The notes beneath the pieces were generated by a model. The model was not told where the DNA came from, ran no database searches, and was given only the letters and a program-made list of their open reading frames with translations. A stretch of DNA of 64,000 nucleotides from contig NC_060258.1 in NCBI RefSeq assembly GCF_921293095.1, forward strand, positions 62,001 to 126,000, read 5' to 3'. Of this stretch, positions 18,317 through 64,000 are shown piece after piece. The position numbers and the translations under genes were made by a program. The first letter of the stretch is position 1. Each line of letters opens with the position of its first letter. The stretch is from Ischnura elegans (lineage: Eukaryota > Arthropoda > Insecta > Odonata > Coenagrionidae).

Positions 18317-18348
<32 letters not shown>

Positions 18349-28807: not shown

Positions 28808-28971
28808 ATGAGTCGCGCCAGCGGGACTTTCACGGAATCTTCAGGAAGGAATTGCTGACTTTGTAGGAAAAATCATGATTATTATTACAACATATTCACT
28901 TCGGATGTAGCATGCAATAGTAACTGTGAAGGATGCCCTACATGATTTAGTCGGCTTACATGTGAGTGGCA
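28808..28971 (+). pseudogene. Right gene ZAD exon 1, disabled
   Basis: The sequence aligns with exon 1 of the left gene (ATGAGT start, then the NDYYYNIFTS region). The CRLC box has become TGC-TGA-CTT-TGT, a nonsense change in place of the Arg codon. A one-base insertion about 75 bp later shifts the frame into further stops. A possible GT donor remains (ATGTGAGT). The domain cannot be made from this exon. Confidence 0.8.
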
Positions 28972-29354
28972 CATTAAATGCTATCGATTTTCTTTAAAAT
29001 GGTGCTTCCTTCATTTTGTTTTATCCAAGATAATTACGAGATCTGTTGATGCATAATGATGCATGTGCCTTTATGACCAAAATCACTTCTGTAAATGCTT
29101 AGTTTATTTTCTGTTTTTAAGTTCATTTGTTGTTTTGTTTATTTGTGAGCATGTTTGTTTTTATTTTGATTTCTTTTATTTCTTTGTTTGAGACGATGCT
29201 ATGGTGATAAAAGATAAATAATAATTCGTTAATGAGAGAGCCATCTTGAAGTGGGTGTAATAAAAGTGTATTGAGAACAAAACAGAGTGTCAAGTGATAT
29301 TTACATGAATTTAATCGCTGTGATACGTTAATAATTTGTTTAATAATATCTCAG

Positions 29355-29489
29355 ATTGCAGTGGGAGATGGCCTGCCCACTACCAGACCAGTGTGCTTGA
29401 AGTAACTTACGGAATGCAGTGTTTTCAAAAAGATTTTATCATCATCGGACGCAGTTCTGACAGAAAGTTTGCCGAGTAGTTGCTGCAGG
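29355..29489 (+). pseudogene. Right gene ZAD exon 2, disabled
   Basis: It starts after the acceptor ATCTCAG with IAVGDGLPTT and ends at the donor GTGAGT. It aligns with left exon 2, but the CPLC pair is disrupted by small indels and a TAA follows 16 codons in. Both splice sites are preserved although the reading frame is lost. Confidence 0.78.
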
Positions 29490-30015
29490 GTGAGTACTTT
29501 CCCTTTTTTCTTATTTGATGACTGACGTGGTGTAAGTATGGCAGAGTTAAGGGTAACACTCTTCGGTTTTTGTCGATAACAGTAGGAATCTTGAAAGATA
29601 AATTTTGCGGACTGAAATATTTGTTGTATAAAGTTGTGAGGATTAACTCTATATTTTAATGGATTAAATTCTTGATGACACAATTGGAGAAATATAATGT
29701 TGAACTACTACCGGTGGCCATTAATTGGAATGCTAACAAAAAAGGCGCTTCGATTATCGGTCAAAAGATAATTTAGCATACCTTTTGGTAATCTACAATA
29801 ATAGGGCACATGAAAGGTCCTCGTCCATGGTCTATGGAAAAAATATAACAAGTCCAAATTCCCATAAACTGTTTTTCCTTATCTCTGAGCACTTGGCAGG
29901 ATGCTATTTATGTTGCAGTTGGTTTTTCAGTGCCAAAGACTGAAGACATTTCATCTTCTGGTAAAACTTAGTGTTTAATAGGCAATGATATACAGGAAAG
30001 TACCCAGATAGCACA

Positions 30016-30345
30016 CACTTCTGTAATACAGCTGTAAGAATACACCAGTTATACATATGTATCTATACAGCTGTATTACACATGTATTACTCGCGTATTT
30101 TTACATGTGGAAATGATACACATGTAATACAGCTGTAAGAATACACCAGTTATACATATGTATCTCTACAGCTGTATTACACCTGTATTTTTCGTGTATT
30201 TCTACATGTGGAAATAATAAGCTTATGTAATACAGCTGTACGTATACACCAATTATACATATGTATTTATACAGCTGTATTACAGTTGTATTAAATGTGT
30301 ATTTTTACATATGTACAAATACAGCTGAATTACACGAGTATGAAG
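30016..30345. repeat. Left subterminal palindrome array
   Basis: Three imperfect copies of a roughly 110-bp unit are present, each with TAATACAGCTGTA, TATACATATGTAT and TACATGTGGAAAT. Almost every motif is a CANNTG palindrome embedded in TACA...TGTA. Confidence 0.8.
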
Positions 30346-30598
30346 TCATCATCGCCTCTAATATTCTTGAACAAATATTCAGGTAATAATCATTTCATAA
30401 TAGGATTTATTTTCGATCTATAATTGTATTTATAATGCCGGTACCCTATTTGGAACCCATATTTAAATATGAACGCTGATGGTAATGTTTTGTTGTTAAT
30501 TAATATGCTTAACGTACTATGCTGGCCTCCTGCGCTCAATCGCCATATTATTAGACAGAGTCCTCTTTTTTTTCTCCGCACTCCACCGCACTCGTTGT

Positions 30599-33229: not shown

Positions 33230-33605
33230 TTAGATGTATCCATACATAGGATATACAGCTACATACATGTGTATATGTACATGTACAGCTGTAATACACG
33301 TGTATATGTACATATACAGCTGTAATACACGTGTATATGTACATATACAGCTGTAATACCTGTGTATATGTACATATACAGCTGTAATACACATGTATTT
33401 TTGCTGTATATGTACATATACAGCTGTAATACACTTGTATTACACCTGTATTTCCAGAAAAATACAGCTGTAATACATTTGTATTACAGCTGTATGGCAG
33501 GACTTTTGAGCTACTTTTACAGGTGTAATACTGCTGTATTACAGATGTATACATCAGCTATACATAATGTATAATGCTTGTAATACAGCTGTATTACAGG
33601 TGTAT
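33230..33605. repeat. Right subterminal palindrome array with 31-bp units
   Basis: Units beginning TACAGCTGTA start at 33284, 33315 and 33346, exactly 31 bp apart. Each contains CAGCTG, CACGTG (or CCTGTG) and GTACAT palindromes. The array then becomes irregular up to the terminal repeat. Confidence 0.8.
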
Positions 33606-34002
33606 TACATGTTTTGTGTTATCTGGGTATGGGATTCAAATTCACCCTTTATCAACTTAGCAAGGCAATTCACACACATGGCTCTTCCATACTCCATTTT
33701 TTTCAGAACAAAGAAACCTCTGACCATATTGTGATAAATAATGAAATGTGAGAGATCTTGAAAATAGTTTGTTGATCGGTTGTCAATTTTAGTTCCAAGT
33801 GCATGTAAACTTATTATATTTCTTTTTTCTGTGCCAGAAAAGTTTAGAGGGCAATGCATAATTGATGCATGATTGGTTTTGCAAGTTTTAAGGATATGAA
33901 TATCAGGGTTATTTAAAAAAAATATTTTCATGAAATAATTTTGTAAGAGAAGATGACTTTGAGGTTTCTTTTTTCTTAAATAATGTTCTTGGTGCAACGG
34001 TA

Positions 34003-34226: not shown

Positions 34227-35220
34227 AGAAAAGAACGGTGGTTATTTGGTGGTGGTTAGCCAGGCATACTAAAATTGTAATGATAGAACTCACAATGCTG
34301 GTTTAAGTAAAATCTATGATAATCTGGATAGTCGAAGTTGATGTAAATATAATAAACGTGATTATGATGTCACAAATTAGCAACTTGCATACAAATGGAA
34401 CAAGTACATGAAGGTATGTCAGATATATTTTGTTAATTTGTTTATAGAATTTTAATTTCATTTTTTAGAATTCAATGTTGGACATTTTTTACTACGTAAA
34501 ATAAGTTTTTAGTGCTTGACCACTTTTAATTTTTAATGCTCTAATCAATTCACATGCATAATAGAAAGTAGAAAATAAATTTCTGTAAGCCAGCAAGTAT
34601 GTTTTTCATAATGATGTAAGTCCCAGAGATAATCTTTAAACATAAAGAAGACATCAAGAATGAAAGAAGTATATCGAAAGCATATGCTATGTCAATGGTT
34701 TCTATGGTAAGACTTGGGCTTAAATAAAATATATTAAGTGATATTGATAGTTTATAACTCTTTACTCAGAAATTCCTGATTTTCTAATTGAGTGCAGGAA
34801 TAAAATGTTTCTTTTCATTCACTTAAATGTGAAAATGACAACCTTCATCAACATTGTTGTTAAGAATATAATTACAATTAAATTAAGGGAATAAAACCAC
34901 ACCTGCATGACGTCTAATACTCTAATCCAAATGCATAATACATTTTTCTGTGAAAGGGCCCACTTTAAGGCCTTTGAGGGCTCAAAGGTTGTTGCATTGC
35001 CTGAATTAGAATCAAGTTTACCTAGTTTCTTCCTGCCAAATTTAATTTCATTTGGTTTGGTCGTTTTCAAGCCATTTTGCAACAGATGGACAAAACTCAA
35101 TATTAAGTTAACCGTGTATATAGAATATTTAATAATCCTGATTCATCAAGATTAGGAGCATCTCTTCCTTTTTTACTTTGATGGAGGTGAGTTGCTTATC
35201 ACAGGTACTTTCTCTGAAAG

Positions 35221-35403
35221 GAAATGAGGCGGAAATGGTGACGTTGGATTTTTCTTCAGAGACAAAGGACTGCATGGTGGCTGTGAAGTGCCTTCTGCAT
35301 TCGAAATGTGGTTGGAGGCACTTCACAGCTCACATGCTTTGTCCTTACAACTGTGACACACATTCCTGTACCGGACTGTAATCTACTGAGAGCCAATGTG
35401 TTG
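35221..35403 (+). pseudogene. Right gene module A exon, disabled
   Basis: It aligns with module A exons (the SS..TKDC region and the donor TTG|GTTAGT). The acceptor CAG has become AAAG, and the exon is 183 nt instead of 168, with frame changes. Within it, CTGTGAAGTGCC at 35281 and GGCACTTCACAG at 35317 form a 12-bp inverted repeat; the second arm is the ancestral exon sequence. Confidence 0.7.
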
Positions 35404-37684
35404 GTTAGTTTCTTTCTCATCTATTGTGAAACCTGAGATAAATAACCTCCAGATGCACTAAGTTCTTGGTGAAAGAAAGGAAGTGTGTTCGCCTAGTGGA
35501 AATATTTCTGCGGGAAGTCACTGTCAATTGTGCGAACTTCAGGGGTATGACTTGTATGATATGAGGCAAAAAGCATAACCGTAATTATTTTAATTTAAGT
35601 CACTTTAAGTTTTAAATCACTAAAACACTGCTTATCTCCTAGGAGAAATGTCTTGTATCTAATGTAGTAGGCCAATGGTAAACAATCTCAATTCTATTAT
35701 TACGGCAATAGTATTTGGTAAAACATGGCTGGAATGAAAGATTGTTCTGTAAATGTTCAAGCAAAATTCATGCTTAACTCAGCTAAAGCACTAACTCTAA
35801 ACCTACTGTCACCTCTTAATTAGAATGAGAAAAGCAAAGGAGAACACAATCCAATGTATTAATGACGTAAATGGTTCTACAAAAGATAATAATTACCTGG
35901 ATTTTGTTATCACTGTGCATTAGCAACTTTGCTCTAAAATCTAAAATAGCCCCAGAAAAGTCATCTTTTGGTGCACAGGATATAAGTTGTATTGTTATGC
36001 ATTAAAAACACCTCACTTAGCATGAAATGTGCTAGTATGACACTCTTTAGGAACATGTTTATAGTTAAGTGAGGGGTACCTGAAATAGAAACAAAAATAT
36101 TATGGGAGGAATTTTTTTATTTGCATGTTCTGATTTACTCACAAGAAGGCAAAAAATTAAAATGAGAAGACAGACTTAATTGTAAATGTTTCATTTTTTG
36201 CTATGAAATTTGAAGACTAATTCATGATGGAGTTTTTGAAATTCCTTTCATCTACAGCTCAAATCCACACTCAGATATTTGGGAGATTACTTTACTCGGT
36301 TGCAAATACTTTGGGTACTGTTTGTTAGAAAACTTGTATGTTTACTCAGTGTGGCCCGATGGTGTGCTGTCTATGGCGTGAAATGCAGCCAGTGCTACAT
36401 TAAGGCAGCTTTCAGACGAAACAACTTTTCACCGGCCATCATTCACAGCATGATATGCTCAGTGGTACGAAATGGTGACATGCTCAGTTCCAGTTTAGAT
36501 TGACCAAATGCTTAAGTCTGCTCCTGAATCATTGAAATTAAGCCAAATGATTAAGCCTTAATTTTTCAACATTCTTTCTGTAGCAGGCATTGGGGTTTAT
36601 TTTTGGCCTCTCTGTTTATGCCTCAGCATGCCTGATGTTAAAGGAGATTCCATGGGTGATGGTGTGATCAGCAACAGCACTAGTTTTTTTTACCTAAAAT
36701 AATTGAAGGTTAAGGTTGACTGATTCTCTCTTTTATAAACTCTTACCAGCTGCATTGAAGACATTATGCATTGCATAACAGTACCAATAGGTATTCAATT
36801 GAGCCATTGGTTCGTAAACTAGCAGATATTTGCATCGTTAAAGCATCATCTTCAATTTTCATGGTTTTTAAAATTTGTCACTCTCAAACAGATGGGAATA
36901 ATTTTAGCATCCTTGCATCCAAACAGTGAGTCATTGGAATGAAAAATAAGGGATATTAAGGCTCGCAAACTTGGGAAACATGAATTTAAGTGCAATAATT
37001 ATAATGAGAATAGACTAACATGTAATGAATGAAGCACTATGGAACAGGGGATTTTTATGACCTATCAGAACTGTGTACTCTCTCTCATGCTTCTGGTGGC
37101 ATTGAAATTGATTGCTTTGTTCAGGCAAAAGAGCTCCTCAGAATTGGTTTTCTTGTTTAGTTATACACTTTGAATTAAATTTATCACATTGGTATGTACA
37201 ATGTAATCTTCAATTCTTTGAATGAGGACCTTTTTCCTAGTGACCTTTAGTCATTAACCTCGTCGTTTGATATCCACTCATTGCATTGGAAGGTTTCCCA
37301 CTTCTTAATTTTTTAATTGTTCACAATGGATAAGCAAGATATAATAACATGTATCATAATAAGATAACAGTGTCTCTATGGGTTTCCATTTCTATGTTGG
37401 GCAGTGTCTTTTACTGTTGTGAATTTATTTGATCTAAATGTGTATAATAACATTTATTTTTTCAGGGTCTGTCAGCCTGCTGCTATTAAAATACAAGCCA
37501 TGGACGTTTAATGATACCCTTACTGGGAAGTGATGCACAGCTGTTGATGTTCATATTTTACATTGCAACTAGTGGAAGGTTGATCTGACATTATCCCAAA
37601 TTTTATGCAAATTATTTGTTGACTAAAAAGCAGATAGTTCTGTTTGATTTGTCTATAGTGTTTATAAATTTGTATTAGGATATC

Positions 37685-38573
37685 ATGAATCAATGTAAAT
37701 CACCATTACACTCCAAAACTGATAATGTGGTAGTGCATCTGGGAAGACTTCCTGAATGGATCAGTGAACAAAAAACGGTGAAAGTGTTGATAAAATCTCA
37801 GGAATGTGTAATTACCTCTCTACCATCTTCTATAACATGGAAGGAGTATCGATTTAAGAACAGCTTTTGTGGGAAAAACTTGTTGCCGTCACAAAACCAA
37901 GATTTGGTCAATGGTCAGAGGTTAACTCACTCTACTGGTGGGAACGTGATAGTGAATTTCATGGCCAAGTTACCTGATGACATAAATTGTTGTTGTAAAA
38001 TGATAGGGGTTTGCATTAACCCTTTCCTTGGATTTGATTGGTGTCATCATGCAATCGACTTACTGAACAATGAGGCCTTCCAGTGTCTTAGAAAAGTACA
38101 GGAGAACATGGATTTTGTGCTTAGCATGGCCATCACTGAAGCTCAGTGTTCTGATGTAGAGTGCAAAGAATGTTCATTGCTGATGGATTCACCCTGGCTA
38201 GCAGCATCAAATCCTGGAGGCAGCCTGGTAAGTTTTTGAGAGCACCAGGGAAAAGGTGGGAGTGAAGTTAAGTGGAATACATGTGGTCAAGTTATTAAAG
38301 AGTGAGGAGACATAATTTTGTTCTGGTAATGGTCCACTGAGTAATAGGAAAGCAGAATGTGGCAAAGACTTTTGTGGTCTGGGATGCATGGGTTGCAGAT
38401 ATAAAGTTAAGGGGAAGTGCGTGCATTGTGGCCATGCTGATTGCATGTTTTCAAAATCTTCTTTAACTGCTTCTAATTTTACCGCAAGAGACTCCATTTT
38501 CTTAACAGATTTTAGTGCTGAGAGGTCATCTGAGAAGGGAGGGATCCTTTTGATGGCAGTCAATAGTGCATAG
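37685..38573 (+). pseudogene. Cys-rich coding relic, possibly MGA-related
   Basis: An open frame of 184 codons (37685-38239) is followed after a frame change by a second open part with one in-frame stop. The second part includes CGKDFCGLGCMGC and CVHCGHADCMF, a spacing that resembles the CxxxFCxLGCxC...HCGxxxCMF segment of MAX-gene-associated (MGA) proteins. No introns are visible within it, so a decayed retrocopy is plausible. The first ORF is not one I recognise, and joining the two is inference. Confidence 0.35.
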
Positions 38574-39137: not shown

Positions 39138-39305
39138 AGTATCAAAGAAGAGGAGACAGGTGATGACAATTTACGGTCTTCTACTGACTCACAGGACTGC
39201 TTGCAAAGTGCGAATGAAGGCACTTCACAGCTCCCATGTGCATTCCAAACTACTGAAATATACATTCCTGTGTCAGACTGCCAAGAAACGAGACCAGATG
39301 CTTTG
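39138..39305 (+). CDS. Right gene module A exon (56 aa)
   Basis: It begins SIKEEETGDD and ends TRPDAL, with acceptor TCTGCAG and donor GTAAGTTT. It is 168 nt, phase 0. It shares DNLRSS, DC and TTEIYIPVSD with other module A copies and is the most upstream intact exon of the right gene. Confidence 0.78.
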
Positions 39306-42300: not shown

Positions 42301-45300
42301 GGTGCATTTCAAAGGTAATTCAATTCATAGCTTTTCTATGCTTTCTCTAGCAACCTCGAATACTCTATTGCCAATATTGAGTAGAAATTGTACAATCTAC
42401 ACTTACTGCAGTGTTACCTAAAATGCTGGTCTCAGAAGAGGCGGGAGAATAAGGTACTTGCCTGCCAAACTGACTAAATGCACTGTTTTTGGGGTGGTGA
42501 AGATAAATATATGGATTACTCACACTTTATTCATTCATTATTGTAGGGAAGCTCAAATTTCTGTTGAAATTTGCACATAGCAAGGAATTAGGTTTGTGTT
42601 TCAAGAGCCAGGTGTAAAACTGTGATTGAAGGTGGATATCATTATATTAAGTACCTATTGTCACTTGTCAGAAGTATCCTAGAATACTTAAGGATTTGGT
42701 GGATTTTGCCCACAGGAATTTTGTGTGTATGGCCTTCAACAAGCTTCCCTCTTTTGAACCGTGTGCACCATTTGTAGAGTATATGCCTCTTTTTACAGAT
42801 TTAAGTATATATTGGAATGGCTAGTAAGATATATCATAGAAGACTTAAGTATTTGGAGAAATCTGCCATCAGGTATATTAACTTCATTTTACAGATCTAT
42901 AAGCAGCTCGGATCAAACAATAATTAATGTTCAATATGTGTTATTAACACCTTAATATTAAAAATTGCACTGGTTAGAGCCTGAATTAAATATTTCGTTT
43001 GTTATGGAATTCCAATTAAAAAACTCCTTAAAATTATTGGAAAAAATGCTTAAGCGCCTCCTAAAGGTCATGCTGTAAATTAAAAAAAGTGTATCAAAAT
43101 TTGAAAAGTATTAACTCATTCTCTCACCCATTGAATTTTTATGACCTCATAATTTTGATTGAAAGAAGAAATGACATTGGGCACAATTATTTATATGAAA
43201 TAACAAATAATGGAAAGGATGGTAAAATTATTGCAAAGGTTTAACTAGGTGTTCCTGAGTATGAAGTGGGAGTGACAAGAATCTCATGATTACATGCATT
43301 TGGTCGGCTTGACTGGTCTTAGGTGAAAAGGAACACATTCAGCACAGAGCACGTCAATTGACATGCTCTGCTGGTAGGGCTGGGAGCCTTTTCTCCATAC
43401 GTTACTAATATCCGCTTCCGAGTCTTCGGATTGTGTGAATGGCCTTCAACAAGCTTCCCTCTTTTTAACCATGTGCACCGTTTGTAAAAAGCAATATTTC
43501 AATAGAAATTATGTCACAGAAACTCCTGCTATGTTTCTTTCATTTATTATATCGGCCAATTTTGATGACTTAAATGAAAATCAGGCCTGCATTGAATGTG
43601 TTAAATAGGGTCTCAGTACTATTTATTTTGCCTTAATTTAATGACACCTAGCATTCTATTCTAGTTTCATGTGAAAGAGGAGAAAGAAGACCCTCTCAGT
43701 GAAGGAATGTATCCAGCGATGTACACACCAGATCCACCAGATGTCGCAGATCCATTGGCAACTGATGAATTGGTGAGTGTACTCTTGCATGGGTCAGTGA
43801 AGTTGCACTATCATACAAATTCATTCCATGGTTGAATATTCCCAGTGCCACTCAGCAGGAAAACACAAATTTTTCCTTAAGTTGATGAAAGTTGAATCAT
43901 AGAGTTCAGAGGTATCATTCATGACTGTACCCTTCAAAGCGAACTATGCATTGTGATGAAAAGAATAGGTGTGTTCTGCCTCTCAACTTGGCTCACTGCG
44001 GGTGCGATCCAATGAATTCCACATTCACTCTAAGACACTTCAGACTGAAGTGTTGTGCAGCACCACGCAGGGGCTATTTTCTCTACAAGAATTTCTTTTC
44101 AGATGGGTCAGGAGCATAGTCAAAATGTAGAATGAATGAGGGGGCTAAAAATGTTAAGAGATGGTTTTGAATGCAAATTGAGGTAATAATTATCATTGAA
44201 TATTAATGATTATGGTCAAATATCTTTAAATTCCAATGTCCTGGTTTCACAAAGTAGAGCAAGTAACTTAAGACAGAATTTGTCACACCTACCCCACATG
44301 CCATGAATGTTGATGAAACTCATTACCCTGGACAGTAAAAAGTATTTAATTGCTTAAAAAATGTAGAAGTTGGCACTTTTTTCTGGTTTTCCAACAATGG
44401 GAGCAAATGTATTTCCCAACCAATTGAAGTTTCAACTTCTTTGATAATATTTCCAGAAATTAAGAATCAATTGATCTTTTACAAGAAACTTCCAACATGA
44501 TAGTGCAAAAATTAAAAACCAGTGAAAACTGACTTTTTTCCCTGGGATCAAAGAAATAGGCTATTTTTAGAATTTTATTCAATGGCCATTGTGAAATAAT
44601 GACATGGAATTATGAAAATGAATATTATTTTTATTTGCCAAAGTTGATGTTAATAAAACGAAGTATAACCCGAAATGCACTAAATCTCTAACTAAATTCT
44701 CTGATATTGAATGTATATGTTTTCTGTAAATATGTTTTAATGCATGGGTACTGAAATCATATGCCAGGTACTCCCTACAGATAAGTCATCATTACAAATA
44801 ATATGGTATCAGGAGGTAGACATCTCCAGAATATTGCTCTGAGGATCATTTTTGGCTTTTCACAAATTTTGCAGTGCAAAAAAGAGGCGTTATGAGTATG
44901 GCAAAGATAACCATGCAAATGGCAAACATGCAAACCAATTTTTAAGCAGTTAAATTTCCTTACCATTACTTCCTTGAGACAGCTTGTAGAGTAGACTGTA
45001 GATTTAGACAAACACTATACATAAAAATCAACCTCTAATTTTATTTCTGTGACTAACTCAACAAGGTGTTTCCTCATTTTTCTAACTCTCTCATTATTTG
45101 TGCACTTATTATATGTGGATTCTTGTGCAGCCTTTGACCTCTACTCCTTTCCAAGAAGAATGGTTGGAATGTATGGCTGAAAGCACAGGAGCCATCGTGA
45201 CAGACTTTGACTGGAAGCTAGTTGGGGCTAAGGAAGAACCATCCCCAGAGGATGCTGCCAAGGTATGCCAGACATTCATCTAATCTATTGATATTTGGGT

Positions 45301-48300
45301 GTAGGTGATCCATATAAGGAGACATGGTGACTGATGTTCATGACTTGAATGCCAATCAGAGGTGATAAATTTTAATGTAGTAAACCGTAATGCACAAACT
45401 GTAGGAATGTTTTCTCTTTGGATTTTTTGCAATTTGTGCTTTATGGGTGACTCCTGCTACAGTTATTGCCGTGGCTAATCCCGGTGTACTTAAAAGTATT
45501 CAAGACCGAATGCCTCTGTGTGTTCAAAGTTCAGACTTTGCTCTCCGGCTGTGGTGCCATGTGCACGACTTGGAGTGCTTTTGGCATCATATGCTCAGCA
45601 TTCCAGCATCACCTTGTGCAGTATAGTCCACAAATATCCAGAGGGGACCGCTTGGAATGTTCACTGGCTAAAAACACTCAGGTGGAAATCGAGGGATTGG
45701 AGCTCGAATCCAGGTGTAGGTGAATGACTTTTTCCCTCTGTGGATTTTTTCACGCAATAGGGTGGTTTCCTATTATTATTTTATTGCCTAAATCGAAAGG
45801 TTATTACTCCTGGAGTACGTATTTCACGCTTTTAGATTTTTAAATGACAGTATCTATTTTTCGCGATTAAATGAAAAGTGAAAATTTTCAAGCGAGCGAA
45901 AACGCGACTCATAAGTATGAATGCCGGGAAATCTGTCCGTGCGTCGTATTTCTGGTTCCCCCTCCCGCCCGGTGAGGTGACCTTGAGGTGAGGCTTAGCG
46001 CTGATACGTCGCAGTATGCTAGCAGGTAGCTGAGTACCCTTCTTGCAGGTAGCGCTTTGCTCAATTAAGGATTATTAATACCTCATCAAACGAAGAAAAC
46101 TTTCCGACCCTATCCAGTTTTAATAAGTGACTATTAAGTTATGCTTTCCTGAGCTCTGTGCCTCATGCATGCATTGGTAACCTCAGACGATGTATAACTC
46201 CTATCTTCTCCTATAGAAACTAGGTCCCTGTGACGTCACGTGGAGTGGCATTGCATGGACGCCAATCTGGTCCTTTTCAAATGAGGATAAAAATGAACCA
46301 TTGCCACTCGTCTAAACCGGCATTTCTAAAACGAAATAATTTGTATATGTATTGTGAATACGTTAATGGTGGGTAACGAATCGCAATTATTTCCTTTTGT
46401 TTTCTTTGATGAAGGAAACTACCCTATTTACAACTTTCATTCAGTTGAGAGCCAATTGTGGTGTTACAATCACTGTTAGAGGCTATGCATTGTGATTGGC
46501 TGAAAGAAAATACTAGCAACAGAAAAAGAGATGGGATTTCCATCCCTCAAGCTGTTGAGATAATTATCTGTAAGAAATAATAAATAATGGAAATAGCAGT
46601 TAAATACTACTGGAGTTGAACTGCAAGCAAGGAGTCATAAAAAACTTATGAGTACATACATGCTTTTGGCTAGCTGAAGTGGTCTCAGCTAGTAGAGGAG
46701 GTTTTATTATTATTTCATAGAGGTTATTTTTATTGTTTGACCTATATTTAGTGACACTCAGCATTCTCTTATAGTGTCATGTGAAAGAGGAGAACAGAGA
46801 CCATCTTATGGAAGAGAGTTATCCCATGCTGCACGTACGAAACCTTGCCGGAATTTCGACTGATGTCACGGATCCATTGGCAACGGATGACGTGGTGAGT
46901 GTACTTTTGCATTGTTTAGCTCAGTTATGCGATGACACAAATCCATTCTCGGGTGGAACATCCCCAGCACCACTTAGCAGAAAGGCAAGACATTTTTCCT
47001 CCCTTGACCTAACAGGAGCAGAAATGCTGTGTTTTTCATGAACGAATCATTTAAAATGAATGAATCGTTGCGACAAATAATTAGCTGTATTTTACTATAC
47101 TGGTAGCTTATCTTACTGTTATTTTTAGGTTTGAAACTATTTCATTGATTTTCATCAACTTTTATTAGAAAATCACAAGGAATTTTTATAATTAAGTGGG
47201 CATGGGCCATGAGAGGCGGAGATACCAGGAATTGACCCACTGGATGTAACAAATCATTCACTTTCAGGGCCACCAGATCACACCAGGGTAGTATAAGTCT
47301 TTGGCTCAATGTAGGCAGACTCAGGCTGTGATTCCTCCAAAGAGCTCTCCTCACCCATATCCTTCTCCTCATGCTCTTCTTCTTACTCTGGTGACGAAGT
47401 CATCTGTGGGTTGAAATACGCCATTCGCTGCATTATAAGGTGTCCCTCAACAGAAGTCATATGATCAGTCTCAACATCTCCTTCAACTGAGCGGCAAGCA
47501 TTGAAAGTTTTACCCTAGTCGCGACATGTACCATTAATCACATAATACTTCTGGGGAAACTGAGGATCAATGTCACCCCTAAATCCCTCAGATGCCAATG
47601 TGCACTGCATCTCAGCTGCTTGTATTTTCTCCATTCCATTACAGCCATGAAAAGGGGCCAAGCGATTGAAATGGACTACTCTTGGCTTCCCTCTTGGAGG
47701 TTTCTTGATCGTGTACACCACATCATTGATCCAGGTAACTACCTCATGCAGTCCTTCCCACTGTTTCTGGAGCTTTGCAGAGTACCCACAAATCCTTTTT
47801 GGGTTGTAGAGCCACACCAAATCCCCTGCCTGGTAGCCACCCTGGTCAGTCTTGATATCATACCTCTCCTTCATTTTGCCACTTGTATCCTCAAGATTGG
47901 AATGCACTCTTTGATGGGTTTCATCCATACTCTTCCTGAGCTTTGTGATGTAGTCTTCTATCTCAACATCCTCCCCAGACCTGCACCCAAATTGGAGATC
48001 ACAAGGCAAACGCAGATCTCTCCCAAAAATGATGCGAGTGGGTGTCTCTTTGGTTGTCTCATTGAGAGAACTTTGGTAGGCCACGAGGAAGAAATGGAGA
48101 TGCAGGTCCCAATCATGTTGATTGTCTGGAACCATTTTCATTAGGTATCTACCTAGGGTTCCGTTCATACGCTCAACCATGCAATCAGACTGTGGCTGAA
48201 GTGTTGATGTCCTGGTTTTCCTGATACCCATCAACTCACACACTCGGGTGAATACTTCTAACTCAAAGTTTCTTCCCTGATCAGAGTGAAGCTCTAATGG

Positions 48301-51300: not shown

Positions 51301-54300
51301 TCACGCTTCTCGGAAAAGCTCATTTGGCTATGATATAGTGACGTTTTGCTGAAAACCCTAAAAATAACCGTAGAACTTTGTTTAAAAGTTCTACAGGCAT
51401 TGCAAAATGAAAGGAATACATTGATGAACTGACATTTAATGCAACAGTTACAATTATAAAAAATTAAAATTGCACTGGCAACAATAAACTAACTGCAAAA
51501 GTACGCCGGAATGGGCTGTCTTCAGGGAAAAGGGTCGAGGATAATATTTGCCCAGTTTCCAAGGAAAGGGTCTGGAACTCCGCCAGGAAAGGTCATTAAG
51601 GGGACGAAGCGACTATCTGCACAGTCCCAAGTCAAGAAAAAACTTTGTACGGGGCGAAAAAGAATTTCTCAAACCCTTTGCACAGCCAAAAGCAACTTCC
51701 CTGGAAGGAGCTCGGTGCGAAAATGTTAAACTCTGCATTGCTTTTTAAATAGGTAGGAGTTGTTGCTTTACTGTTCTTGTTCAAAGGTTTGTTTACACCA
51801 TACTTTTACCTGTAAGGTGGGATGATTGTAACCCCTAAATAGCATATATCAACTTTAACTAGCCTAGGAAATTTTTCTAGGTATGGTAAAATCCTGAGAT
51901 TCAACGGAAAATATGTATTAATGACCAAAAAAGAAAATTATATTTACGTTCCTCTCTCAGTGAAGTCGTAATTTTTATAAATCATTTATTAAAATCTTGT
52001 CAAGGGATTGCACTTGCCCTGTGTATGGAGCACGTGCATCCCATGGCTGATGTGTCATATATTTCCACATGAAGTGGCACATGGGGTAAGTGTGATTTGC
52101 CCAGAAATTCAACATTACATTGCTTTTTAAGATACCAAATTATGTTACACCATTCTTGAGAAATTGGCTTTTATCTAAGGTAATGGAAGTAGTTTTTTTG
52201 CATCTTCTTGTTAATTAGGTATTACACTAAGGAATTTAGTCATCGATCGATGGTGACAGTATTCCAATTTCATAAATTAATTTACAAGCATATTACAAAT
52301 AGCTAATGTGTATATAAGCTGAATAAATAGTAGGAAAAATAGCATAGAATTTGTATATGACAATATACCTGAATGTAAACTAGGTTGAAAGAAACAAAAA
52401 ATTCATTCTATAATGTAGCTTGCATTATCAGTATAAAGAAACAAAATGAAGAAAAACTCATGGTCTTCCAACAATTGAGCCTTCAATATTGATTAATTTT
52501 TAACTCAGGTTTTAACCCGAGAAAGATAGGGAAAATGTTAACTTATCCTCCACAGCCAACCAAAGGATTAGGCAATATTTTTACAGCGTCTTCCCTTGGT
52601 ATTTCGCTTGAATTCTTAATCTGTGGATAGGTGATACTTATTTCAGTCCCACAACATGTTCTCAGAAAGCAAACCACGGGATAACCTGATTCATTGTTCT
52701 CCAGAATTCTCCCTATATAGTGAGCAACTGACTTTTTACCACTGAATATAGCCAGAAACCAATCTCCACTACTATCCTGTATTTTCTGGAGGGCACCAAC
52801 TATCCCAAATGTATTTTTCTCTGAACTCTAGGGATGTGGAACGAGAATTCAAGGGAAAAATATTGTTGGCCCGTGTTCCATTACAATGTGTGGAATATGT
52901 TGTACGACCACCACGTGCTTCAAGAACGGAAATACCATCTTACATGAGGGAGGTAACATTTACCCCACCTCACCTTACTAGTTATTGTCCAATAAATTAA
53001 CCCATGAAAGCATACTTGAATAAATGTACACATTAATGTAATTTACCTGTGAAAATTGTCACCCTAAATTTCTAGTTTAAGAACTAGCTTGTAACTTAAA
53101 AAGAAGGGAGTTAAGATACTTTGCATGACCTTGATATTCCAGGGGTTACATGAATTTGCAGTGAATGGCATGGTTTGAAGGCATTCTCATGACCCCAATG
53201 TTGCTGTAATAAAGCCATAATAGTATGAACTGAATTTCACCAAGAATCTTCTTGCCCGATTTGGTTTCTAGCGGCCATGTAGTTTTTGAGTAATTTATTT
53301 ACAAACACGTTTCAATTTTTATTTGATGACATAGATACCATTTCTAAAATACTGTGTCATAAATATTAGCAGCAGTCCTTAGTTGTTGATTTTGAAGTAG
53401 GTGAGTTGTTATATCAGCGTTACTCTGTTTGCAGAGTGTTGCAGGAGAGGGGGCAGTTGATGACAATTTTAAGTCTTCTCCTGATACAAAGGACTGCGTT
53501 CAAGATGCAGTTGTAGGCACTGCACTGGTAGCATGCTCAGTCCAACCTGCTGAAATATTCATTCCTGTGCCAGACATCCAACGGCCCACAGCCAATATGT
53601 TGGTAAGTTTTATTCTCATATACAGTGAAACCTGTGTTGTAAGATTCATTATTTTAGCTTTTTTTATATTAATGCATCGTGTGTATGATGAAAATAGGTT
53701 TGCCTAGCATATGTATATGCATTTCTATGGGAGTCTTCTTTAACATTTGGATCATAAGTTGTATGATAGGAGGTAAATTGCCTATCCGTTTACTCATAAT
53801 TCAATCTTAGTTGCGCAACGCGGCTAATGGGATGAAATAAATGTTGCACGTCCCATGTAGTAAGTCTATAGTGAATTCTCTCAATTCTACTTACAAGCCA
53901 GTAGTCTTGGCTGTTACACAGCTATTTGTTTAACCAATATCCCTTCATAAAGTCAGTAAGGGAACTTGCCTTAATATAAGCATGGAAGAGCAAAGGAGAA
54001 TACAGTTACCGATATACATAAATATATATACTTCTCATGCAAGTAATTATCTCCAAGTTTATTACAGCTAGGATTTTCAACCACTTTGCAATATCAGCTT
54101 AACCTTTAAGGGACAGCTTTAAATCCCAGATGTATCACAGCATGGCAGGGCATTTAAATGGCCTTGCTTTAACATATAAGCAGCTCTCCAGTCAACTCTT
54201 GAGCGATAAAACTCATTATATGCCGATTTTATACAAAGTGTGTCTCATTGATCCCAAAAAGGACTGGAGCATAGGTGGATCTAGGGGGGGACATGCCATC

Positions 54301-57300: not shown

Positions 57301-60300
57301 GCTTCTTGACTTGCATCAGCAGTTTGGTCTTGATAATGGCACTGTATAGACGTGTTACGTCAGAGAAAATTATTGCAATACTAAATGATATTCTTGTCTT
57401 AGATGCCATGAATTGCATGTATGGACATCTAGTTTTGTTTGGAAACAGCAGTTCGTCAATGGTTGTGTGTGGTCCAGACTATGGTAAGGGCATTTTAGTA
57501 CTTCAGTTACGAAGGAAAAACATCTTAGCATGTACACAAGGCTATCGGACTGACACATGACTATCTTGAGGTTGTGTGCCGACGTGGAAGGGGTGCTCGC
57601 CAGGCTTCAAAGCGACGACACCTTCTCGTTCAAGATCCTACCTGAGAAGGAGATGGCCATTCTGTGGAACCATAGCCTGGGCCACACATAACCTTTGACG
57701 AACAGCTGTTTCCAAACAAAGCTAGATGTCCATTCACGCATTTCATGGCATCACAGCCTCATAAATATGGGCAAAAATACTGGCTTGTAGCGGAAAAGGA
57801 TAGTAATTATCTGATTAACGGATTTCATTACCTTGGCAAGGACGACTCTCGTCAAGCTGGGAATCGCTTTACAGATCATGCTGTATTGCTTGTCCAAAGG
57901 CAGAGATATTACTAATGGTCAATTTCTCATCACTTGGCTTGGTTTTGCTTGAAAGAAAGGGTACAAACCTTTTGGGTGCCATAAAGAAGAGAAAGAAAGA
58001 TATCTCTGCTGGAAAAAAAGCCCTTGTATTTAAATAATAATAATATTTTCGTACATCTTCTTATTCTGCATATACTCAAAGAATACTTCTTGAAACAGCT
58101 CATCACCATTGCCCAAGTTCATGGGAAACTAACTCGACATGGTGAGGATGTAATCATGCTCTCCAATTACTCAGTAGTGTACAACAAGGTACCCTTTCTT
58201 ATGGCCACAAAAGTAAAGAACCTTTTGCCTCTGAACATCATATATATTCCTTTCAGACATGAGTTCAAGCATAAAATGAAACTTCTTCGTGTAATTTAAG
58301 CTACTGCAGCCTTAAAAAGTTCTTCGATGTGTATTCATATCACAGGGCTAGTAGATTGTTTCCTTATGTTGCTGCATGCATGCATGCATTGTATTTGACT
58401 TATATTTTACTAAGTAAAAAAAGGACCTATAAATCATATCTGATAATGGTATAGATTTAAATCGAGTGTAATATTAATATAATTGATAGTAGTACTGACA
58501 CTTGGTGGAAATCCTTTATTGTGGGAGTTGAAGAAATAAAATCTTGGCTTTTTCTTTTAAGTGATTTATTGTGATGATGAACTTGCAAGCATGCTCTCAC
58601 AACAACTTTTACAACATAGTTGCTTATTAGTTTGATTTTAACGTAGTGAATCTATTGCCAAGTATCCCAAGAAAGTACATAGCACTTTTAGTGGAAATCA
58701 CCCTAACCGAGTCAGATACACTGCATCCAGTGATAAGTGAAGTTTGTTAACTCATGAATTTGTGCACAAATCAACACAGTTTTTTTCTTCATTGGCAGGC
58801 ATTACAAACAGTTAGATAGCCTAGCTATGGGATCACCTTTTTCCCCTGTCCTAGCCAAAATTTATATGGATAATTTTGATATACTTAAGTTCTCTATTAT
58901 AGTTCCCTACTTCAAAAAGCATAAAATAATATCGATATGTAGTCAATGTGTACTGTGATTGACAGGGGTATGTCATGAAATTTAACCTTTTCGCGCCGAG
59001 CTCCTTTACAGGAAGTTGCTTGTGGCTATATGAAGGGTTTGAGAATTTCTTTTTTGCCCCATACGGAGTTTTTTTCTCGGCTTGGGACTGTCCAGGTAGT
59101 CGCTTCCTCCCCTTAATGACCTTTCCTAGCGGAGTGCCGGACCCTTTCCTCGGGAACTGGGCAAATATAATCCTCGACCCTTTTCCCCAAAGGTAACCCA
59201 TCCCAGCGTACTTTTGCGGTCAGTTTATTGTTGCCAGTGCAATTTTAATTTTTTTAATTGTTACTGTTGCATTAAATGTCAGTTTATACATGTATTCCTT
59301 TCATTTTGCTATGCCTGTAGAACTTTTAAACGAAGTTCTACGGTTATTTTTAGGTTTTTCAGCTAAACGGCACTATATCGTAGCCAAATGAGCTTTCCCG
59401 AGAGGAGTGAGGTTATCGTCTTCCACGTACATATTTGAGTAGGAGAATACTTACACCAATATACTCTTGGATGTTCCACTTGGAGGATAATAAGTTTTTC
59501 AAAGAAAACATTAACGCTCTAATGTATCCCGAAATAAGCCCGTGAGGGGCACAGGGCAGACCACCTGGATCCTGACCAGAGAACCAAGATATGAGAGTAA
59601 TTACCTGGGTAGAGAAGTTTTTATTCTTGCAATGGTATGGAATGCTTCTCACAGCATGTGTCTACGTAAAACATTCCTTATCATACATTATCGTACATTA
59701 AATTTACGAATTTTTAGGATATGCATTAATAAGTATTTATAGCGAAATTCGTTTATAATACCTTTGTATTCAAAGGTTGGTAAGAGGTTATTAAAGTAAG
59801 CCGCTGTAAGTTTGGCTCACGACAAAGAACTAAGAGAATCATATTTTATTACATTACGGGGGCTTTTTTTTCATGGAAGTTAAATCGGATGTTCTATCGA
59901 ATTTCACCGCAAATGTACTCTTAGAATGTAGCTAACAGAGTAACTTAAATTTTAGATGTACATCATTAAAATATCGCTCCTATAAACTTGATAGTAAGAT
60001 AAAAAGATAACAACTAAACATCTAACCTTAGCGTCTTCAAAAAACGTTCTAGGTTATGATCAACTCCGTTAATATGAACGCTAGAATTCCGTTTAAAATT
60101 TGGAACCAATCAGCAGAACATACAGAATGTAATTCCTCGCATTGATTTTCAATAAATACAACATTTATATGTTTAGTTATTCCACCATATAAACAAATAA
60201 GTGACCATGAGCACCTTCCTTGAGTGGGTCACTAAGTGCCGGAATGGGCCGAGGTGTTCCCCACACGGACAATAGGAAACGGTCGGACCTCTCTTGCCGA

Positions 60301-63300
60301 GGGACCCACTTGGCATTCTTGACCGAGAAATCGTAAAAAAACGGCCTTTGCCCTTTTGCTTCGAAAAATTCAAGCCATGAAATCATGCCCTGCGTAGGGA
60401 AGAGGTTAATGCGATTTCTTAGAGTGCTCAATTCACAGGATAAATACGTGTATGAATAAATAAATACAATTTTTGGTACAGAAGTCGAGGAGGAAGGCAT
60501 ACAATGGAATGTAATGGGTGTAGACCGCAGACTCAATTGGAATACGTTTCCACTGCTGTTTATGATTTTTTTATCGTTCTGAAAGGTGGAAATCAGATTT
60601 CTTTACATTTGCTGTCATCCATAGATTATTCATATTTTATCATAAATATTATTGATTTACTTCTTGTTCACATGGAAAATATAAGCTAATATGCGAGTTT
60701 ATATGGTTTAAGAATTAGTTGTGCGTAATCACCTGCTAAGTTAGTTTTAATTCCCTGTCCATTCATATTTTTTCCTACTTTCAGCCTACTTCTATGGAAA
60801 ATGGAGAGCTGATTCAGAATCAGACAATGGCCATGGAGTCTATGACGGAGGCAGTAGGTGAGTGCTCATAAGTGCTTGAAAATAACTTTTCGCATAAAAG
60901 ACTTGTAACGAATTCTGACCAGGCAAATGTTCCAATACTGGATCTCAGAATTCAATCAAATTTTGTGATCCCAGAATTCAATCAAATTTTGTGATCCCAG
61001 AATAGGGTAGTTTCCTTCATCAAAGAAAACAAAAGGCAATAATTGCGATTCGTTATCCACCATTAGTGTATTCATAATATACAAATTATTTCGTTTTATA
61101 AATGCCGGTTTAGACGAATGGCAATGGTCCATTTTTATCCTCATTTGAAAAGGGCCGGATTGGCGCCCATGCGATGCCACTCCACGTGACGTCACAGGGA
61201 CCTAGTTTCTATAGGAGAAGATAGGAGTTATACATCGTCTGAGGTTACCAATGCATGCATGAGTCACAGATCTCAGGAAAACATGTCTTAATAATCACTT
61301 ATTAAAACTGGCTAAGGTCGGAAAGTTTTCCTCGTTTGATAAGGTATTAATAATCCTTATTTAAGCCAAGCGCTACCAGGCGGCAGGGCACTAGGCTACA
61401 CGCTGGCAGCCTGCGACGTATCAGCGCTAAGCCTCGTCTCAAGGTCACCTCACCGGGCGGAGGGGGAACCAGAAATACGACGTACGGAGAGATTTCCCAT
61501 CATTCCTACTTACGCGTCGCGTTTTCGCGCGCTTGTAAATTTTCACTTTTCATTTAATCGCGAAAAATAGATATTGTCATTTAAAAATCTAAAAGCGTGA
61601 AATACGTACTCCAGGAGTAATAATCTTTCGATTTAGGCAATAAAAAAATTATAGGAAACCACCCTATTTGATCAAATTTTGTGATGAAATTTGTCGTAAT
61701 TTCATTTTACTTTTTATTTTACAGAAGCCTGTTGTTCCATAAATTTGAAGAAATTTTTATTTTTATGAGTGGGTCGAAACTGTGGCCGCTCTGGGTGACA
61801 ACTGGGCACTTTAAGCACGGGGCTAATGCTAACCCTTTGCAGAGTGTCTCTTATTTATTAATATGTTTGACCCTGAAATGTTTAACTGGATTTGTAGTTT
61901 AAAATATTGGTTGTACATGTTACCCCATATGGGGGCTGATTCGGGGACAACTCACAATGGACTGCAAAAAAAAATTTGGTTAAATTCTTAGATCAGCTTT
62001 TTGGACACTCCACTTGTGAAGGATGTAGCATGTGAATGTTTCATCCTGCTATACTTTCTTTAGTTTATGTTGACGGTTCTGCTGGATAATTTAATCAGGT
62101 CGGTAAATTTCTAGTAAAATTTTCTTCGTGTTTCAGTGAAATATATTAATATTTCACTGAAATATTGCTATGTAGAAAAATTCATAGCCTTCTATTTCTT
62201 GATAGTCATGGTAGCGATAGATAAAGTTAACATGGAACTTGTTAAAATGAGGACAAAAGGTTTGGTTCAGTTTTGAAATAATAGAAAAAATTTAATTTGA
62301 TACATAACGCTTCCAATTCACTCTGTTGTGCTCATGGAAGCAGTGCTTTATTAGGTCAATTACATATTCATGGAAGAAGTGAGATATGGAAAAATACTGA
62401 TTTGGCTAAAAATAGGCAAAACACAATTTCAATGCCTTGTGTGCCGAAGTTCTGGTTCTGGAGATAAAGGACAGTAAGTGACCAGTCCATGCTTACTTAT
62501 TCTTGTTAGCTAAGATTTCAAGGCTATAGTTTCATCCAAATTTTTCATGGTTGTACAATGATGTACAGGGCATCACCCACATTGAGGGTGGTTATGAGAG
62601 GTTTGAATAATTTGGATGTAGTTTTACAAATAACTTCATGGTATATTTTTTAATATGGATGCTCTACTGCCATTTTGCGTGAAATGGTGCACTGGGGTGT
62701 TTTTTGGAGTAGATGTTTGAGGTTATTATGTAATGCCTTACTTAATTTCTCTGAGCTGCAGTGCCACTCAATTTGTGAAGAAATGTTTTGACCCCAGTAT
62801 AATAAGTAAATTGCAACATTGTTTGTGTGTATGGCATTGAAACGAAAGATCGTTTGAAGTTGCAACTTTGATATCTGTCTTATGGTTGTTATAAATTTGG
62901 TCAACGAATGATATATTACATGTATAAATTTACTCATTTTAAATGTGAAATACTTTTCTAGATCACCCTACTTCTGAAAGAGCCTCAGCTATGTTTACTC
63001 TCCTTGAACAAAAAACTAGAGCATCAAATTCGAGGAAAGGAAGGAAGGTGATGGATGAAGACATTGAAAGCTGTGGTACCCTGGTTGCTGATAAAATAAC
63101 TTCGTGCTCAATTCCTGGTGATGGACAGTTTCATTCGAAATCTAGGCATGTGTCTAAAATCAGAGGAAATAGAGAAACAATGACTGTTGCTGGACAAACA
63201 AATGGTTGTGATAATCGAGACACCATAGAGTTTTTCAGGGTCACTGACAGTAGAAAGAGTGGCCATGAGGCAGCCATGCGAGAAAACAAAGAGATGAGTA

Positions 63301-64000
63301 CTAGCATGATCAAAAATCCTCGGAAGCTTGCCAAATCAAAGGACAATTCTTTTCGTTGCTTCAACTGTGGAGATGCATTCAATGCCAAGAATGATCTTAT
63401 CGAACACCTCAAAATTCATTTTGGTTCTGGCATTTTGGATATTGATGCTAATTTGACAATCAGAAAAGATTTGGCCCTCAAACCTCTTGTTTCAAGAGGA
63501 GAAACTAATAGTTCTTATCAGTCCACCTCCTCCAAGAGTTTAAATAAGCTGATATGTAAAAGACAAGGGATGAGACAAAACGGAAATGGGGTTTTTAAGG
63601 CAAACTTTGGAGGAACCAGGGAGAAAAATGTGAGGGAAGTGAGGAAAAGCTTCACTGCAGATGGGGCATCATGCAGAGATAGTCCACACAGTGCAAAGAA
63701 ACATTATTCCTGCAATGAATGTGAACAGCCATTCTCTAATAAGAGTTGCCATCTCCGTAACAATTGTATTCATGCGAAGGAGAAACCTCATTCCTGCGGT
63801 GAATGTGAAAAGTCTTTCTCTCGAAAGAGTCACCTTATAGATCACATTCGGACACATACTAAGGAGAAACCTTACAGCTGTGGTGAATGTGAAAAGTCTT
63901 TTTCTCTTGGGAGCAGCCTTGTCTGTCACATGAGGATGCATACAAAGGAGAAACCTTATTCCTGCGGTGAATGTGAAAAGTCTTTCTCTCAAAAGGGTCA
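39138..64000 (+). CDS. ZAD/C2H2 zinc-finger gene, right copy (span of open exons)
   Basis: The open exons are 39138-39305, 43665-43772, 45131-45262, 46775-46894, 53435-53602, 60785-60857 and 62962 to beyond the window end. They keep the same phases as the left gene, with all junctions phase 0 except the phase-1 donor of 60785-60857. The upstream ZAD exons and the first module A exon are broken. If expressed, the product would be a ZAD-less finger protein started from an unseen promoter or exon. The left-gene module B exons 8 and 9 have no visible counterparts here. The module order A-B-C-B-A compares with A-B-C-C-A-B-B on the left. Confidence 0.7.
40000..43600. other. Intron of the right gene, one short direct repeat
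   Basis: I find no gene or recognisable transposon here. A segment of about 55 bp containing GGCCTTCAACAAGCTTCCCT occurs at about 42728 and again at about 43440, in direct orientation, 710 bp apart. Confidence 0.5.
43665..43772 (+). CDS. Right gene module B exon (36 aa)
   Basis: It begins FHVKEEKEDP and ends DPLATDEL, with acceptor TTCTAG and donor GTGAGTGT. It is 108 nt, phase 0, four codons shorter than the 46775 copy. Confidence 0.78.
45131..45262 (+). CDS. Right gene 44-codon linker exon
   Basis: It begins PLTSTPFQEE and ends EDAAK, with acceptor TTGTGCAG and donor GTATGCCA. It has the length and phase of module C but a different sequence, with a Trp-containing stretch (FDWKLVGAKEE). 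It may be a distinct module in the same slot. Confidence 0.65.
45757..46428. mobile_element. MITE family 2 (about 670 bp), copy 1
   Basis: The ends read AATAGGGTGGTTTCCTA and, reverse-complemented, AATAGGGTAGTTTCCTT. A second copy in reverse orientation lies at 61001-61668. The interior includes a GC-richer part and the phrase GACGTCACGTGGAG, shared by both copies. It sits about 500 bp downstream of exon 45131-45262. Confidence 0.8.
46775..46894 (+). CDS. Right gene module B exon (40 aa)
   Basis: It begins CHVKEENRDH and ends DPLATDDV, with acceptor CTTATAG and donor GTGAGTGT. It is closest to left exon 4, sharing GISTDV(S/T)DPLATD. Confidence 0.78.
47515..49934 (-). mobile_element. Ty3/Gypsy element, internally deleted
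   Basis: Reading on the minus strand, gag starts near 49934 with a SAP-like segment (ITLSQLKVADLK, then LEERDLDTSGKK in another frame). A coiled-coil-like stretch (49565-49700) and a zinc knuckle CWACGEVGHKRNKC (about 49370) follow. Then comes the end of pol: WAQWNSI, an HHCC integrase zinc finger (GGHLRLHKTL...CRKC) and the integrase core with AIDIAGPFP, HSDQGRNFE and VERMNGTL. Protease, RT and RNase H are missing, so a large deletion joins gag to integrase. Stops and a foldback insert at 48343-48550 also disrupt it. Confidence 0.85.
48343..48550. mobile_element. Foldback insert inside the Gypsy integrase
   Basis: It is flanked by a 12-bp duplication, AAACACATCAGA, at 48331-48342 and 48551-48562. 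It contains two 75-bp near-perfect inverted arms (48395-48469 and 48476-48550) around a 6-nt loop, preceded by about 50 bp of unpaired sequence. Removing it rejoins the integrase reading. The inner arm phrase CTGCCGAAACCTGGGTC recalls retroelement 3' ends. Confidence 0.8.
49974..50155 (-). mobile_element. Putative 5' LTR end and primer-binding site of the Gypsy element
   Basis: On the minus strand the sequence ends ...CCTGTAACA, followed two bases later by TGGTGTTAGAAGCGGGA, a tRNA-complementary primer-site pattern common in insect Gypsy elements. An LTR start at TGTAGCGGCGCC (near 50155) is a guess. I found no matching 3' LTR near 47100-47500. Confidence 0.45.
50452..51725. mobile_element. 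piggyBac-type element (1,274 bp), copy 1
   Basis: It is bordered by TTAA at 50448-50451 and 51726-51729. The ends read CCTCTTCCGTACG and, reverse-complemented, CATTTTCGCACCGAG. It is the same family as 58986-60405 in opposite orientation, with matching interior. No transposase ORF is present. Confidence 0.75.
52543..52830 (-). CDS. Right-arm copy of the small antisense ORF
   Basis: It reads GIVGALQKIQDSSGDW and onwards, with VAHYIGRILEN and IPREDAVKILPNP, and ends at TAA 52543-52545. It aligns throughout with 14857-15117, with one extra codon and no frameshift. No in-frame Met precedes it, so it may be an exon or the end of a longer lost ORF. Confidence 0.4.
53435..53602 (+). CDS. Right gene module A exon (56 aa)
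   Basis: It begins SVAGEGAVDD and ends PTANML, with acceptor TTTGCAG and donor GTAAGTTT. It is the reverse-complement partner of left exon 7, identical in length and without indels. Confidence 0.8.
54744..55798 (+). mobile_element. Solo LTR (1,055 bp), right-arm insertion
   Basis: It starts TGTGACGGTACGAC and ends GATCTATCACA, flanked by ATAT on each side. A TATA box (TATATAA, 54919-54925) and a poly(A) signal (AATAAA, 55640-55645) lie in the order expected for U3-R-U5. The inverted left arm near 11620-11640 lacks it. No internal retrotransposon sequence adjoins. Confidence 0.75.
57340..58032 (+). pseudogene. piggyBac transposase relic
   Basis: TFDEQLFPNKARCPFTHFMA begins at 57691 and continues to NYLINGFHYLGKDDSR, giving the DDE_Tnp_1_7 region with the first catalytic Asp (DEQ). 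A stop follows, and a frame-shifted LLERKGTNLLGAIKKRKK matches the later part of the family. An N-terminal-like RVTSEKIIAILND lies near 57350. The remaining catalytic residues are missing. Confidence 0.75.
58788..58890 (+). mobile_element. Penelope-like element RT fragment
   Basis: The reading HYKQLDSLAMGSPFSPVLAK, followed by IYMDNFD, matches the AMGSP(L)SP motif of Penelope-like reverse transcriptases. Only about 35 codons remain. Confidence 0.6.
58986..60405. mobile_element. piggyBac-type element (1,420 bp), copy 2
   Basis: It is bordered by TTAA at 58982-58985 and 60406-60409. The ends read CCTTTTCGCGCCGAG and, reverse-complemented, CCTCTTCCCTACGC. It is an inverted relative of 50452-51725. 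An internal segment of about 100 bp near 59440-59580 is not shared with copy 1. Confidence 0.75.
60785..60857 (+). CDS. Right gene short exon before the zinc-finger exon
   Basis: It begins PTSMENGELI, with acceptor CTTTCAG and donor GTGAGTGC. It is 73 nt with a phase-1 end, matching left exon 10. Confidence 0.8.
61001..61668. mobile_element. MITE family 2 (668 bp), copy 2, right-arm insertion
   Basis: It has AATAGGGTAGTTTCCTT at one end and, reverse-complemented, AATAGGGTGGTTTCCTA at the other. It is absent from the left arm near 3260-3280, where the flanking TTTTGTGATC-type repeats run on without it. Confidence 0.82.
62962..64000 (+). CDS. Right gene C2H2 zinc-finger exon (runs off the window)
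   Basis: After the acceptor TTCTAG it completes a split Asp codon and stays open to the window end. It encodes a linker with an isolated finger (RCFNCGDAF...HLKIH) and then the start of the tandem array. The first tandem finger is degenerate: the RHVRTH of the left gene is replaced by RNNCIH, losing a zinc-ligand His. The next two have C2H2 spacing, with contact residues R/S/H/D and L/S/S/C. The fourth is cut off. Whether the array ends prematurely as in the left gene cannot be seen. Confidence 0.82.

Follow-up and report, generated by a model that had tools for sequence, protein, structure and literature searches.

The 64,000-nucleotide stretch of Ischnura elegans DNA analysed here (the window; positions 62,001 to 126,000 of contig NC_060258.1, assembly GCF_921293095.1) carries two insect-type ZAD-C2H2 zinc-finger genes, which lie head to head and arose by an old inverted duplication. 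Self-comparison resolves this duplication into the two arms of the window, each of which holds a related multi-exon zinc-finger gene. The left gene extends on the minus strand from 27746 down to 464, the right gene on the plus strand from 28808 to beyond 64000, and their start codons are about 1 kb apart. Both are called insect-type because of their membership in the ZAD family.

The left gene is an intact ZAD-C2H2 gene. Its two ZAD exons, when joined, match the N-terminal domain zf-AD (PF07776) over residues 21-94 (Pfam, E 1.8e-14), and its C-terminal C2H2 array lies in a continuous frame with eight matching stretches (zf-C2H2, E 3.5e-54). Between the ZAD and the finger exons stand repeated module exons, which we name A (168 bp), B (108-120 bp), D (132 bp) and F (73 bp); all open copies of A, B and D begin and end in phase 0. 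The array is closed by an in-frame TAA at 466-464, and about three more fingers in the same frame follow it (224-466, minus strand), the first of them lacking a cysteine. C-terminal fingers thus seem to have been dropped from the left gene.

Recognisable remnants of ZAD exons and the collinear 3' arms of the duplication show that the right gene derives from a ZAD-C2H2 gene, but it no longer encodes a zf-AD domain. In its first ZAD exon a TGA (28856-28858) replaces the arginine of the left-gene CRLC motif, one extra base near 28910 shifts the frame by +1, and 15 bp are missing relative to the left copy. The second ZAD exon has a TAA at 29403-29405 and a 3-bp gap, and it has lost the first cysteine, a zinc ligand, of its C-x2-C motif. 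The module A exon that follows (A0R) has lost the acceptor AG and, compared with the four other A copies, has a 9-bp gap and 25 extra bases. The original prediction had named the nonsense codon in CRLC, the frameshift, the stop in the second exon and the lost acceptor, all of which are present. Use of A0R by way of the nearby AGs at 35219-35220 and 35258-35259 was considered and rejected, as both run into a TGA (read by eye). DNA profiles, protein searches and a motif scan brought up no other ZAD exon in the window; the scan returned two other matches, both on the minus strand and unlike ZAD. The right gene retains introns and splice sites, unlike a processed pseudogene. Tandem repeats rich in the unit TACAGCTGTA occupy 30022-30310 and 33251-33609, between the dead second ZAD exon and A0R.

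Downstream of the broken part, five module exons of the right gene are open, have AG/GT borders and join in compatible phases. They are followed by a zinc-finger exon that is free of stops from 62962 to 63998 (1,037 bp), the end of its finger array falling outside the window. Stop-free exons with kept phases and more than 1 kb of open finger exon had been predicted, and both hold. Six exons had, however, been counted between 39138 and 60857, and DNA profiles of all six exon types together with protein searches using the left ZAD1, ZAD2, A0, B0 and Da exons recovered only five, with no sixth in that interval. Three-base periodicity is 8.5 in the right modules and 7.0 in the right finger linker, against a mean of 1.05 and a maximum of 3.3 in 105 background stretches. 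Three right modules contain IKEE or VKEE, motifs which we take to resemble the consensus for SUMO attachment. All exons are listed in Table 1.

Table 1. Exons of the right and left ZAD-C2H2 genes in the window (R, right; L, left).
Exon	Position	Strand	Remarks
Right ZAD exon 1 (ZAD1R)	28808..28961	+	dead: TGA, +1 frameshift, 15-bp gap; by comparison with left copy
Right ZAD exon 2 (ZAD2R)	29355..29489	+	dead: TAA, 3-bp gap, zinc-ligand Cys lost; by comparison with left copy
Right module A exon A0R	35219..35403 (approximate)	+	dead: acceptor AG lost, 9-bp gap, 25 extra bases; against four other A copies
Right module A exon A1R	39138..39305	+	open, phase 0-0, AG/GT
Right module B exon B1R	43665..43772	+	open, phase 0-0, AG/GT
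Right module B exon B2R	46775..46894	+	open, phase 0-0, AG/GT
Right module A exon A2R	53435..53602	+	open, phase 0-0, AG/GT
Right exon F	60785..60857	+	open, phase 0-1, AG/GT; fits finger exon
Right zinc-finger exon	62962..64000	+	open to last whole codon 63998; 1,037 bp; first array finger without first His
Left ZAD exon 1	27579..27746	-	intact, open, donor GT, phase 0; zf-AD together with exon 2
Left ZAD exon 2	27323..27460	-	intact, AG/GT, phase 0-0
Left module A exon A0L	22721..22888	-	168 bp, phase 0-0, AG/GT
Left module B exon B0L	21876..21995	-	120 bp, phase 0-0, AG/GT
Left module D exon DbL	19853..19984	-	132 bp, phase 0-0; right counterpart not found
Left module D exon DaL	18555..18686	-	132 bp, phase 0-0; right counterpart not found
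Left module A exon A1L	12813..12980	-	partner of A2R; collinear intron similarity L12583-13589 / R52835-53829
Left module B exon B1L	7311..7430	-	120 bp, phase 0-0
Left module B exon B2L	4265..4381	-	117 bp, phase 0-0
Left exon F	3392..3464	-	73 bp, AG/GT, phase 0-1
Left zinc-finger exon	464..1884	-	ends at TAA 466-464; C2H2 Pfam matches; frame

Disabling changes are distributed very unevenly along the right gene. Five of them (the TGA, the frameshift, the TAA, the lost acceptor and the 25-bp insertion) fall in ZAD1R, ZAD2R and A0R, against none in the six later exons, that is, the five modules and the finger exon. As disabling we counted stops in the native frame, frameshifts and losses of AG or GT, and not in-frame gaps, the lost ZAD cysteine, a change of the A0R donor beyond its GT or the missense loss of a finger histidine. 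Of the nine exons, the three broken ones are precisely those nearest the 5' end (1 in 84). Under a single neutral period shared by the 5' and the downstream part, the contrast has a P of 8.3e-4, or 9.5e-4 with the rate of insertions and deletions halved, and the statement that uniform decay would not give this pattern is borne out, for a split that was known beforehand. Rates were derived from the left sequences for the 5' exons and from the right sequences for the downstream exons, with base and insertion-deletion rates taken from introns of the 3' arms; codons with alignment gaps (6 of 102 in the ZAD exons, 1 of 347 in the finger exon) were left out. Expressed as neutral time, the 5' part is estimated at 0.085 substitutions per site (95% interval 0.027-0.197) and the downstream part at 0.016 at most. 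That the former exceeds the latter speaks for a ZAD-less protein rather than for a single, recent death of the entire gene.

We tentatively favour the reading, to which we give slightly less than an even chance, that the right gene lost its ZAD early and that its downstream frame was kept as a predicted ZAD-less zinc-finger protein. The left gene kept its ZAD. In the right gene, ZAD1, ZAD2 and the module exon after them would have been lost early, and the other module exons and the finger exon would have stayed under selection for an open frame for longer. The predicted right transcript would start downstream of the dead exons or splice past them, and the putative protein translated from it would be ZAD-less. 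Since modules A, B and D are all in phase 0, the skipping or loss of a whole module keeps the frame, which makes a ZAD-less outcome easy to reach. According to one report the ZAD can drive dimerisation (PMC9810180), so that binding of a ZAD-less copy to the same DNA might take place without it. The original prediction had placed recent loss of the 5' part and continued use as a ZAD-less protein side by side; the contrast in neutral time favours the second, but its margin rests mostly on the distal exons, and P is 0.042 against the central exons only.

Several observations weigh against survival as a ZAD-less protein. The P values given above are too kind, as the split into broken and whole exons had been seen before testing, and when only the three ZAD events are set against the central exons P rises to 0.074; the support lent by the central exons is modest. 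Most of the statistical weight comes from the distal exons, and these lie where the two arms resemble each other most and exchange between paralogues is likely; recombination with another paralogue may have refreshed them. The window yielded neither a start site nor a replacement first exon for the right gene. A1R is devoid of methionine, and as the first one in A1R-B1R-B2R is in B1R, translation would have to start there or in an exon not seen here. The first finger of the right array is C2-N-H rather than C2H2, its first zinc-binding histidine being replaced by asparagine. The searches of the right gene turned up neither D exons nor, between A2R and F, any B copies. Finally, the ratio of nonsynonymous to synonymous substitution rates (dN/dS) is 0.92 (counting) or 0.96 (likelihood) between left and right in the finger linker and 1.53 over the A modules, neither 0.96 nor 1.53 being different from 1, and the right and left B branches show no clear difference (a two-ratio model gains only 0.36 log units).

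The same dN/dS values (0.92-0.96 in the finger linker, at or above 1 in the A modules), the missing finger histidine, the D and B exons not found and a central-exon contrast that is weak (P 0.042-0.074) and follows a split chosen after being seen would all suit a plain pseudogene, in which the ZAD was hit first or by chance, the entire gene died recently, too recently for the 3' exons to have decayed. We regard this as unlikely, though far from negligible, because it demands a downstream neutral time below about 0.016-0.021 against 0.085-0.108 for the 5' part (lower limits 0.027-0.035). Neutral decay was simulated from the left partner sequences in 3,000 runs per setting: the distal exons (about 1.28 kb) remain unbroken in 7.6% of runs at 0.02 substitutions per site, in 0.1% at 0.05 and in none at 0.065. 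The three central exons stay intact in about 8% of runs at 0.05 and in less than 1% at 0.1.

Left-right divergence differs strongly along the arms. Introns diverge by 0.10-0.13 near the finger exon and F, by 0.12-0.18 around A2R and by 0.23 further in, and the ZAD exons by 0.28-0.44; divergence thus climbs from 0.10 to 0.44 from the finger ends toward the centre of the duplication (845-18499, 51844-63998), which suggests exchange between the arms or several events. This gradient would suit an explanation in which recombination or gene conversion, from the left gene or from a paralogue outside the window, had refreshed the 3' part of the right gene, its open frames then reflecting selection on the donor. 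That most of the introns in between have no collinear match is in line with such a history, as is the synonymous divergence (dS) of 0.39 in the finger array against 0.14 in the finger linker, according to which the arrays may have been rearranged. The probability of this explanation appears low to us nonetheless. Intron divergence beside the distal exons amounts to some 0.10-0.17 in total, or roughly 0.05-0.085 per side if split equally, and conversion by the left gene would have to predate about 0.05 per side, too long ago for 1.28 kb to have remained intact by chance. Such conversion would also leave out the three central exons, in whose introns recent similarity is absent. A third paralogue could nevertheless have been the donor.

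A further explanation is that the right 3' exons are spliced to an intact 5' exon, perhaps a ZAD exon, outside the window, in which case the right gene would be an ordinary ZAD-C2H2 gene to which a dead first module has been added. Any upstream exon ending in phase 0 would fit the phase-0 modules, introns in this region are many kilobases long, and the scope of the analysis is the window, beyond which lies the DNA to its left. Such an arrangement is nevertheless improbable, as it would have to skip the whole region of the left gene, and within the window neither the ZAD searches described above nor the three-base periodicity of a 184-codon open stretch at 37679-38230 lends it an exon. This stretch (plus strand, AG/GT borders, phase 0-0, an early ATG) lies between the dead and the open right exons and was considered as a replacement first exon; we rejected it as probably a chance reading frame, having neither coding periodicity nor any relative that the searches found. 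Its periodicity of 1.05 is equalled or exceeded by 46 of the 105 background stretches. Pfam gives no match to it at E values up to 10, tblastn finds no second copy in the window (next match E 0.43), and its matches in the PDB are weak (four sequences, best E 0.35). Its length alone is somewhat unusual: among 60 Markov resamples of 29501-62900, two had a longest open stretch reaching 186 codons.

Comparison of dN/dS with the left partners, which the original prediction had proposed as a check, was carried out and neither supports nor refutes function of the right gene: the ratios near 1 in the linker and the A modules are matched by pairs within the left gene that are no lower. The pair A1L-A2R reaches 2.0, whereas the compared part of the array gives 0.42-0.53, the whole compared finger exon 0.70-0.79 and exon F 0.29 (interval 0.06-1.40). 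Inside the left gene the values are 1.57 for A0L-A1L, 1.02 for DaL-DbL and 0.60 for B1L-B2L. We interpret the first two as an indication that the linker parts change freely even in an intact gene, so that values near 1 do not mark a dead one, and accordingly we rejected dN/dS as a judge of function. Only the B modules look constrained, with a ratio of 0.49 over the whole tree (P 0.009 against 1); the right tips give 0.33 (P 0.051) and the remaining branches 0.59 (P 0.15). The topologies of the B and A trees were fixed by us rather than inferred, and codons with gaps or stops were excluded from the counted ratios. Selection in both genes seems to bar breakage of the frame and not the change of residues. 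The free change of the linker parts agrees with a study of Drosophila ZAD-ZNF genes, which places positive selection mainly on the linkers (PMC7655104), in line with the high ratios of the linker modules here.

The insect ZAD-ZNF genes, of which the Drosophila Oddjob-Nicknack cluster is an example, are similar to the present pair in possessing a ZAD (zf-AD, PF07776), a variable linker and a C2H2 array, and in the gain and loss of paralogues within clusters (PMC7655104). Unlike in that cluster, one member of the head-to-head pair has lost its ZAD with its module and finger exons open, and the linker consists of repeated phase-0 exons. Among vertebrates, a study of KRAB zinc-finger genes reports that human ZNF252 has an out-of-frame KRAB-A and a KRAB-B with a stop, and that ZNF16 is KRAB-less (PMC2865497). 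There, too, N-terminal effector exons are broken or absent while the zinc-finger array remains, although the domain is the vertebrate KRAB and not the ZAD, and those genes were studied with orthologues of several mammals and expression profiles, whereas the right gene is known from sequence alone. Partial PRDM9 orthologues without KRAB and SSXRD (PMC5519329) are likewise cases of lost N-terminal domains with a constrained remainder, tested by dN/dS. Their function is backed by a SET-domain dN/dS below 1 and by expression in testis; the right gene has no such domain. As a type of event, the loss of the ZAD resembles the broken-KRAB genes and the N-terminally reduced PRDM9. No ZAD-less derivative was found among the matches listed for literature on ZAD, ZAD loss and cockroach or termite, and our statement extends to these matches.

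If the right gene is active, it would represent a datable ZAD-ZNF duplicate that sheds its dimerisation domain and persists as a ZAD-less DNA binder, a counterpart of the KRAB loss seen in vertebrates, and its phase-0 module exons would show how ZAD-ZNF genes can drop parts with the frame unbroken. A dead right gene would be no more than a duplicate in ordinary decay. A more speculative possibility, which we consider doubtful at best, is reciprocal loss: the left gene would keep the ZAD without about three C-terminal fingers, and the right gene, ZAD-less, would have perhaps a longer array and acidic KEE modules, so that the pair might divide an ancestral job, with the right protein competing at shared sites without ZAD-mediated dimerisation.

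Two further features lie within the genes. Matching open stretches of 91 and 94 codons at 14842-15117 (plus strand) and 52543-52827 (minus strand), 84-85% alike in DNA, are situated inside the two genes on the opposite strand and have no Pfam match up to E 10. Remnants of retroelement integrases occur in the introns of the right gene (47515-48811, minus strand) and between exons of the left gene (23281-23649, plus strand), with the Pfam families Integrase_p58_C and SH3_retrovirus above their cut-offs and rve and rve_3 below theirs.

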